Shown here piece by piece: positions 38,171-56,615 of a DNA stretch of 64,000 nt. Each line of letters opens with the position of its first letter. Position 1 is the first letter of the stretch. Location of the stretch: contig MWEG01000111.1 of NCBI GenBank assembly GCA_002070945.1, positions 1 to 64,000 of the forward strand. Reading direction: 5' to 3'. Under the pieces are notes generated by a model. It searched no databases and was not told where the DNA came from. It saw only the letters and a list, made by a program, of their open reading frames with translations. The DNA comes from Lentisphaerae bacterium ADurb.Bin082. Its GTDB lineage: Bacteria > Verrucomicrobiota > Lentisphaeria > Oligosphaerales > Oligosphaeraceae. The position numbers and the translations under genes were made by a program.

Positions 38171-41100
38171 TCATGTCCATTCGCAGTTCTTCCCCTTATA
38201 GTCCCTAACGTCGAACATAAGTTCGTAGAAGACCTGTTCAGTGAGCAGGAACTTCCCGTGCGGGTCGTCGAGCGTCGCGTCGCCGTTGATGTAGACGGCA
38301 GCATACTCGGTTTCGGCCGGATTGATGCGCAAGGCACCAGTGATGAATGCTTCCAGCGCGACGTTGTCCTTCTCCTTCACGTTGCGCCAAATCACCAAGA
38401 CTGTTTCGGCAGCCGGGTTCTCGCCCTCGATGACCAAGAAGCCGTCAAGCATCCGCATGGTGCGCACACGCAGTCCAAGCAGGCAGTTGAAGGTCTCGGG
38501 CAGGTCAATCAAGCGCGGTTCAGCCTCGCCGACGCCCCGGTTGTAGACCTTGAGCATGCAGGCGAACGGATTTTCGAAGCGCGTCAAGTCAAGCAGGCTG
38601 GCGCGAGACTCCACATCCAGCGAGTAGCGCAGCAGGCAGTCGTTCTGCACCTGTTCCGGCAGACCCAGAATGTCGGCTGAACGGTCCACCAACGCCAAAT
38701 TGTTCAGCGTGTCCTCGTAAGACTCCAAACGGAGGTACTTGAAGCAGTGCGAGACGCCCGTGTCGCGAGATGTCGGCTTGCCTTTTTTCCAGTCATTCGA
38801 GTAGACGGCCTTCTGGATGCGGGGCTTCAACACTGTGTCGAAATAATCGTCCATCTCTATCAGGACATACCGCCTGGTTCCATTGTCGTCTCGGTTAAGA
38901 TCGATTATGGCATGAGCTGTGCTTCCAGAACCTGCAAAGAAATCCAAAACGTTCGAGTTCGTGTTTTGCGCCACACCAGCCAGCGTCAAAATATGCTTCA
39001 GAAAGGCTATCGGTTTCTTTCCGTTTCTGAAAACAATTCCCCCTTCATCAGCACATTGGTTAAAGTCCCTTTCAAAATCCCATAAGTTTGCATACGGGAC
39101 TTCTTTGGTGTCTTCTTTGTCAACCGGCACTCCTTGGAAATAATCCCCGTTTCGTCGTTTTCCTCCTGCTCCAGGCAACCAGAAATAACGATGGCCTAGG
39201 CCATCATTGCCTATATTTGGAACCCGAAAAAGAGCATTGGGAAACTGATCCTTCAACATCTCAAGGTTAGCGACAAAAAATCGACCGCTCGAATTGCCTT
39301 CCCTAAGAGTTCCCCGAATATTTATTCTCTTGAGCAATTCATTGCTGGGTTCGCATTTTTCCAGGATATAATTTCCCTCAGTGAACACTTCTACGCTCTT
39401 ACCGTCCATGCTAATCACTTTATGCGGCGCATCAACGGTTACTTTCCAAACATAATCGTCAAGGGAAGTGTTATCTTCTCGTCTCTTTGCTGGCAAGTGA
39501 GCGTTAGTTCTCCGATACGCCAAAACATTTTCAAACACTTCATGGAAGTCTTTATCTCCCTTGAGGATTCGATTTTCGTGCCGCACCTTCACGGCGAAAG
39601 TTGATAAATACTGCATGCTTCCGTACACATCATCAAGCGCAAACTTAAAGTTATACAGTTCATCTTCGTTAATGCTTGCATATATTGCACTATCATGTCT
39701 TTGAAGAGCCATCGCGAGATACATTCTATCTCTCATAAGAGCCAACCAGCTTGAATGCTTGTAGGCGTCTTTATATACAAATCCACCTTCTCCGGTATTA
39801 TAGGGAGGGTCAATGTAGACAGCATTCATCTGCTCCCGATAGCGCTCCTGCATCAGGTTCAGCGCCTGGAAGTTTTCTGAATGGATGAGCAACCCATCCA
39901 TTTGCGTGTCAATACCGTCAATGCTGGCTATCAGGCGAGTTTTGAACTCCGCCGAAAAAAACGCCGTGTCCAGCACCAGCTTGTCGTTGGCCATAAGGAA
40001 TTCGACGGTGAGGGGCTCGCTGTAGCCGGGTTTGACCGGGGCTAGCAAGCCGCCGGGCGTTGCCTCGATTTCATCAATGGCGAAGAGGCGGACCCATTCC
40101 TGGCGCTGGGCGTCGTTGGCGGCGATCTCGGGATAGAACTCCTCGGGGATACGGTCGAGGGTGATGCACCAGTTGGTTTCAACTACGAACTTTTTCTTCA
40201 GCCACAGGCGCTTCTGGAAGTCTTCGAATTGGGCAAGGAAGGCGACCAGGTCGTGGGCAACGGCGCGGATAGCCTTAATCTTGCGCAGCTCCGTGTCGAG
40301 ATAGCCAGCAGGCCGGTCATCCACGTCGTCCAGATGCATGACCTCGTTTTTGATGTAGAAGTCCAGCTCACGGCGCAAAAAGCCGCCGAGGTCCTTGTGG
40401 ATGAAATAGTCGCTCGTGTTCTTCCTCGTGTAGTTGCGCAGGTGCTTCTGCAGGATATTGCGTTCGTCGTTGCCGGTGTAGCTGCTGTCCTGCACAGCCA
40501 AACGCGCCTGCCATTCCAGCGGCAACGCAGCCAATATGGACTTCTCCCAGGCGAGTTCGTCAGCCTGCTTGCGGCTCTTGCCCTCGGCGAAATGGAAAGG
40601 GATGACCAAACTTTCATCGCCAGCCTCAATTCCCGCTTCGCTGTCAAGCAGGAAGATACGGGATGCCTTGTTGTTGTTCTGCACGGCGTCCATCCGGGTA
40701 AGCTTGAACTGGACGTGCCCTTTGTCGCCGGAGGGATTCAGCAGTACGGTAAAAGTGTAGTCCTTGAGGTCTTCGCTGGACTTGACGTAGTATTGCTCCT
40801 TGTTGGCCCAATGCAGGACGACCTCCTCGCCATCGTAGGGAATGGCGTAGGTCTCGCGACCAGCCGTACGGCGGCGACGCGAGATGACGTCGCCCGCCTC
40901 ATAGTAGCGGCTGAAAAACTCATACAGGTGACTGTAGACCTCGGCCTCGGCCTGTGCCCTGCTGCGGGAGCTGCGTGCAACCTCGACGGCGGCGTTGTAG
41001 CACTCGCCCAAGGGAGTATTGGCATAGACCGGGGCAAGAGTGCCGTCGGCCAGGATAGCGTCACCACCCAGCGCATTCAATGCCTCGCGCTCAAGTTCAG

Positions 41101-56615: not shown

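Follow-up and report, generated by a model that had tools for sequence, protein, structure and literature searches.

Several genes of a kind associated with defence lie side by side in a 64,000-nucleotide stretch of the Lentisphaerae bacterium ADurb.Bin082 genome (hereafter the window). Do they form one composite system, and how would such a system pick its targets? An earlier note on this DNA had proposed an undescribed subtype in which a Mod methylase, an AAA ATPase and a TOPRIM protein are united with a helicase-DUF1156-DUF499 set. All the genes it named are present, full length and correctly placed. The locus is nevertheless an ordinary Hma operon: its cargo belongs to known kinds, and Mod is an orphan unrelated to it. 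Its new part is an apparent exchange of the HmaB recognition region. The host is a draft genome of 126 contigs, 91.5% complete.

The core is a copy of the Hma operon

44307 to 56848, no strand: inserted segment with the Hma operon, between the DUF5107 gene and the alpha-rhamnosidase gene
44705 to 48148, plus strand: HmaA, SNF2/DEAH helicase with a C-terminal NOV_C (PD-(D/E)XK-like) domain, 1147 aa (PADLOC, Pfam)
48995 to 51973, plus strand: HmaB, predicted DUF1156 adenine-N6 methylase, 992 aa (PADLOC, Pfam DUF1156, motifs)
53685 to 56615, plus strand: HmaC, DUF499 AAA+ ATPase; Big_2-like beta-sandwich, then a small alpha/beta domain at the C-terminus (PADLOC, model)

The three PADLOC Hma profiles were matched in the window on the same strand and in A-B-C order, with E values of 4.8e-188 for HmaA, 2.1e-129 for HmaB and 4.5e-122 for HmaC. 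This bears out the assignment of the helicase-DUF1156-DUF499 set to the Hma class, the DUF499 ATPase of the earlier note being the HmaC match; the nested ATPase-TOPRIM module was likewise recognised correctly. The DEAH helicase with a DUF3883-like end was also rightly described: it contains the Pfam domains SNF2-rel_dom, Helicase_C and NOV_C (NOV_C E 1e-19), and its GKT and DEAH motifs and nuclease-like residues D1045, E1066 and K1068 are invariant in 24 aligned helicases. The methylase motifs were found as DPFAGGG at residue 161 and DPPY at residue 548 of HmaB, whose recognition region spans about residues 240–700 and includes the zinc-finger cysteines C250, C255, C313 and C316.

The AlphaFold model of HmaC (pLDDT 85) has BrxC of Acinetobacter BREX as its best PDB match (E 2e-7), which gives independent support for a link between the Hma core and BREX. 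The model also matched Big_2-type domains; it contains a single Big_2-like domain at residues ~808–890, followed at 908–975 by a strand-helix-strand-helix-strand arrangement of partly low confidence. A sequence search of solved structures with the HmaC and TOPRIM profiles returned nothing useful.

The name Hma goes back to Payne et al. 2021 (PMC8565338); Rakesh and Krishnan 2026 (PMC12839542) have since placed the system among the BREX-related ones, as Type-1. The core agrees with this class in having the helicase, the DUF1156 methylase and the DUF499 ATPase in the same order, and in having a predicted nuclease-like domain at the C-terminus of the helicase. Moreover, profile searches found no PglZ/iSTAND, DUF3780 or HKD in any operon gene, as in Type-1 BREX-related loci. 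The Type-1 description also includes an N-terminal TUDOR domain of the helicase and a C-terminal RRM-like domain of the DUF499 protein, for which the arrangement at 908–975 of HmaC would be the candidate. We thus read the core, from its sequence, as one intact copy of the catalogued operon. It differs from the Type-1 description in that HmaC has a Big_2-like domain before its C-terminal domain, a single one where tandem beta-sandwiches are reported for Type-2 BREX-related ATPases, and in that both cargo slots are occupied. With BREX Type 1 and Type 3 (BrxC, PglX, BrxHII) it shares the modelled BrxC-like fold of HmaC and a methylase predicted to be the specificity factor, like PglX, but it lacks PglZ, BrxA, BrxB and BrxL. 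It differs from DISARM in that profile searches found no DrmB/DrmC-type partner among the operon genes, only the helicase cross-matching the DrmD and DrmA models.

The genome has a second Hma operon on a different contig (L004; G000:C92:9926-19948), divergent, compact and devoid of cargo.

The operon is a discrete insertion

42259 to 44217, minus strand: DUF5107-TPR gene, host backbone and not part of the system (94% identical to the G282 orthologue beside the rhamnosidase gene)
38171 to 41308, minus strand: beta-class Type III-like Mod methylase, orphan (PADLOC MTase_III, E 3e-185)

G282, a genome of the same genus, lacks the segment 44307–56848 and has the rhamnosidase and DUF5107 genes side by side. 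One G282 contig (C392, locus L161) aligns at 91% identity to window positions 56849–57683 and 42083–44306, with only 38 bp between the two parts. Since G282 lacks the segment between otherwise adjacent genes, these ~12.5 kb, with the complete Hma operon inside, form a discrete insertion.

The backbone common to both genomes continues past the DUF5107 gene to ~41635, whereas beyond Mod the DNA shared with G282 stops at 37960, where G282 has other genes. As host DNA is shared to ~41635 and Mod lies on its far side, the Mod segment is a second, separate difference outside the Hma insertion. The earlier note had Mod facing the operon; the beta-class methylase is there on the opposite strand, but the two do not face each other directly, the DUF5107-TPR gene standing in between. 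This gene, the insertion itself and a toxin-antitoxin remnant at 48158–48873 were absent from that note.

Intergenic tandem arrays built on GTGGAC/TGGACG units occur at 266–300, 24407–24440, 41889–42026 and 44413–44536; of these, one sits within the Hma insertion close to an edge and another directly downstream of the DUF5107 gene. They may be marks or mediators of recombination. Elsewhere in the window, a large open frame of 69-bp tandem repeats (7686–10946) possibly encodes a surface protein of leucine-rich-repeat type, and a DinG/XPD-type helicase gene lies downstream of the region (60214–62262), with no sign of a link to Hma.

Mod is an unrelated neighbour

Relatives of Mod were found in eight sampled genomes of the phylum, two plasmids and several viral contigs, mostly in SNF2-Mod-Res operons, with Res beside them. 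The window protein is a full-length member of the methylase family of these Type III-like operons, but it has neither the SNF2 nor the Res partner. A single Res query, run without a positive control in this genome, gave no match here, which sets Mod apart from Type III restriction-modification, and no SNF2 or Res remnants surround it in the window apart from HmaA's own SNF2 homology.

Furthermore, a Mod relative was found near Hma in 0 of the 85 other surveyed contexts, 40 of which include at least 3.4 kb upstream of HmaA. Hma is present in 22 and the Mod family in 18 of 388 genomes from the phylum; this genome alone has both, about what chance would give. Given the SNF2-Mod-Res affiliation of its relatives and the lack of Mod near other surveyed Hma loci, we place Mod outside the Hma system, as an unrelated orphan neighbour. 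The subtype uniting Mod, AAA and TOPRIM genes is therefore not upheld: among the surveyed contexts, Mod accompanies Hma in this window only.

On L166, the viral contig whose Mod relative is the closest (50% identity), SNF2 is reduced to a short remnant and Res is absent within 6 kb, a context that hints at an orphan Mod sublineage. Some SNF2-Mod-Res operons (L150:3035-14277, L153, L156) contain embedded ATPase-DUF4276 pairs, so that a second restriction-type operon also accommodates two-gene modules of this kind.

Both gaps of the operon carry cargo

48158 to 48427, plus strand: decayed short toxin of a toxin-antitoxin pair, of which the C-terminal half remains (comparison with the L047 and L048 toxins)
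48424 to 48873, plus strand: MqsA-family antitoxin, CxxCG/HTH (TIGR03830, 63.6 bits, above cut-off; PF15731)
51991 to 53109, plus strand: embedded ABC/OLD-type ATPase (AAA_21/AAA_15; best PADLOC match HEC-01A, E 1.2e-22)
53102 to 53671, plus strand: embedded TOPRIM-like protein, DUF3226-like (DUF3226 E 8.5e-6; HEC-01B E 2e-5)

We surveyed 86 Hma contexts by one genome scan, for which five HmaB proteins served as seeds and open frames stood in for curated genes. The order A-B-C was found in all 56 contexts with the three genes resolved. The A-B gap exceeded 200 bp in 45 of 71 contexts and the B-C gap in 41 of 66; these counts are approximate and some of the 'genes' in the gaps may be spurious. 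The families found in the slots comprise AAA_15/AAA_21 ATPases, MqsA, Fic, HepT/MNT, Schlafen, UvrD, DprA-like, TIR and Uma2, and named plasmid records have VapC/PIN, Uma2 and HsdR-N genes there. Thus, both gaps are usual places for embedded cargo, with turnover. This matches the published pattern of 'Hma-embedded candidates' (HEC), the name given to other defence genes embedded in Hma in passages of PMC12255303, PMC12988326 and PMC10855318 that cite 10.1101/2024.01.29.577857.

The A-B slot of the window holds a toxin-antitoxin pair. Only the last ~63 residues of the toxin match the intact toxins of 119–120 aa in the same slot of L047 and L048; the antitoxin is 50% identical to theirs, with a shorter C-terminal end. 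An iterative profile for the antitoxin was set aside because it drifted into helicases. Because the toxin has lost the N-terminal half that the intact copies retain, this passenger looks dead while the core appears intact.

The B-C slot contains the ABC-type ATPase and TOPRIM partner described in the earlier note, in genes that overlap by 8 bp. Walker A, signature, Walker B and His-switch are all intact in the ATPase, and the E and DxD of the TOPRIM-like protein are invariant in three homologues. The best solved-structure match of the latter, a weak one, is the C-terminal region of OLD; no viral homologue was confirmed. The pair resembles HEC-01 (PADLOC) as an ABC-type ATPase with a small TOPRIM/DUF3226-like partner inside Hma, but its partner matches HEC-01B weakly and over about half of the profile, and would thus be a divergent relative. 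The ATPase has a secondary AriA match and the TOPRIM-like protein no AriB match, PARIS needing both.

Among surveyed loci, the pair occupies the B-C slot in the window, in the same-family genome G083 and in Desulfobulbus L045, and it is found outside Hma in six other genomes of the phylum. The neighbourhood survey that the earlier note had proposed thus places the pair in the same slot of only two other loci and on its own elsewhere. Nor is the layout new as a subtype: HEC embedding and the recruitment of OLD-ABC plus TOPRIM to BREX-related loci have already been described.

The HmaB recognition region varies apart from the rest of the operon

In each of the 22 testable pairs of loci with HmaA at least 75% identical, HmaB residues 300–540 are less conserved than residues 720–992 (median identity 51% vs 70%). 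L043 and L117, for example, are 91% identical in HmaA, 92% in HmaC and 90% in the HmaB tail, but 28% in the recognition region. More generally, in L043/L117, L080/L082 and G083/window, HmaA, HmaC and both HmaB ends are mostly 80–98% identical and the recognition region ~25–55%.

Correlations of distances gave a similar picture. Among 18 near relatives, each 150-residue segment of HmaA correlates with HmaC, and vice versa; HmaB 751–992 correlates with both proteins and HmaB 1–750 with neither. In 13 further loci the pattern recurred in part: the breakpoint lay closer to residue 600, and HmaB 301–450 correlated moderately. Ten distant loci showed uniform correlation.

At 4-fold synonymous sites, the window and G083 are 66% identical in HmaA and HmaC and 44% in HmaB-ATPase-TOPRIM (chi-square p 3e-17; p 1e-11 when the recognition region is left out). 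By this measure, everything that lies between HmaA and HmaC is older than the two flanking genes, which points to replacement of the entire central block. We found no consistent link between methylase heads and A-B cargo: L043 and L117 share their cargo at 83% and differ in their heads. The simplest reading of these comparisons is a repeated replacement of the methylase head or the central block against a resident machine of HmaA, HmaC and the HmaB tail. These three parts evolve together while the recognition region appears to be exchanged, a result that goes beyond the catalogue.

For BREX it has been demonstrated that the methylase PglX determines the specificity of methylation as well as of defence (PMC11341690), and by analogy HmaB alone is predicted to set target specificity. 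A published proposal instead assigns invader recognition partly to the DUF499 ATPase. We consider it slightly better than an even bet that Hma/BREX-related systems acquire new targets when the recognition region of HmaB alone is exchanged, HmaA, HmaC and the HmaB C-terminal tail remaining together as a co-evolving machine.

Weighing the alternatives

The clustering of all these genes within 18.5 kb, together with the recurrence of the ATPase-TOPRIM pair in G083 and L045, might suggest a single composite system in which Mod, the nested pair and Hma cooperate. We regard this as very improbable in view of the 85 contexts devoid of Mod, the overlap of Hma and Mod genome sets in one genome only, the SNF2-Mod-Res affiliation of Mod relatives, and the host gene and shared backbone lying between Mod and Hma; co-occurrence and intervening backbone led us to reject Mod and Hma as one system. 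The ATPase-TOPRIM pair could still be a functional subunit of this Hma lineage, for instance a nuclease, and not an independent passenger. Its identical slot and order in three genomes, tight spacing and single transcript direction would fit, as would the TOPRIM nucleases that accompany Type-1 loci without a fused nuclease (Rakesh and Krishnan, PMC12839542). However, HmaA retains its own nuclease-like domain with D/E/K intact, the pair lives outside Hma in six phylum genomes, and relatives carry other, unrelated cargo in the same slot, which makes a subunit role improbable. Least credible of all is that the operon is a DISARM-like or BREX variant and not Hma: the DrmD and BrxHII matches of HmaA and the BrxC resemblance of HmaC speak for it, but the HmaA/B/C models score highest, and the missing DrmB/DrmC-type partner, PglZ and DUF3780 contradict such an identity.

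The HmaB pattern, for its part, could reflect fast local evolution under phage pressure, free of recombination and silent on which subunit guides restriction. Recognition domains are known to evolve fast (PMC12839542), as in any methylase, so that divergence alone does not tie restriction to the same domain, and the modest signal in HmaB 1–300 also favours this explanation. The drop at synonymous sites between the window and G083 argues against it, as does the lost correlation with HmaA and HmaC in parts of HmaB outside the recognition region. We therefore consider fast evolution without recombination unlikely, if the most serious of these competitors, and retain replacement by exchange.

Proposed mechanism and its meaning

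Taken as a whole, we think it quite probable that the locus is an intact, restriction-modification-like Hma operon in a discrete insertion, guided by HmaB, with a separate ATPase-TOPRIM pair, a dead toxin-antitoxin remnant and an unrelated Mod. HmaB would use its nested recognition domain to find a short DNA motif and would methylate adenine in the DNA of the host. The BrxC-like AAA+ ATPase HmaC and HmaA, a putative SNF2 translocase with a C-terminal PD-(D/E)XK nuclease-like domain, would assemble on the C-terminal tail of HmaB and attack, presumably by cleavage, DNA with the unmethylated motif. In this scheme, a single recognition domain, that of HmaB, would decide which DNA is marked and which is attacked. 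In the B-C slot, the OLD-type ATPase with its TOPRIM-like partner may serve as a separate backup effector, expressed with the operon. The remnant in the A-B slot is probably dead, and Mod is an unrelated orphan methylase.

The locus is well resolved: its empty site is clean, there are two slots for cargo, and one passenger is decayed. It exemplifies a widespread system whose mechanism is so far only proposed. Exchange of the recognition region in HmaB offers a testable answer to how Hma/BREX-related systems pick their targets: if it is true, swapping this region between close relatives would shift the restricted phages and the methylated motif together.
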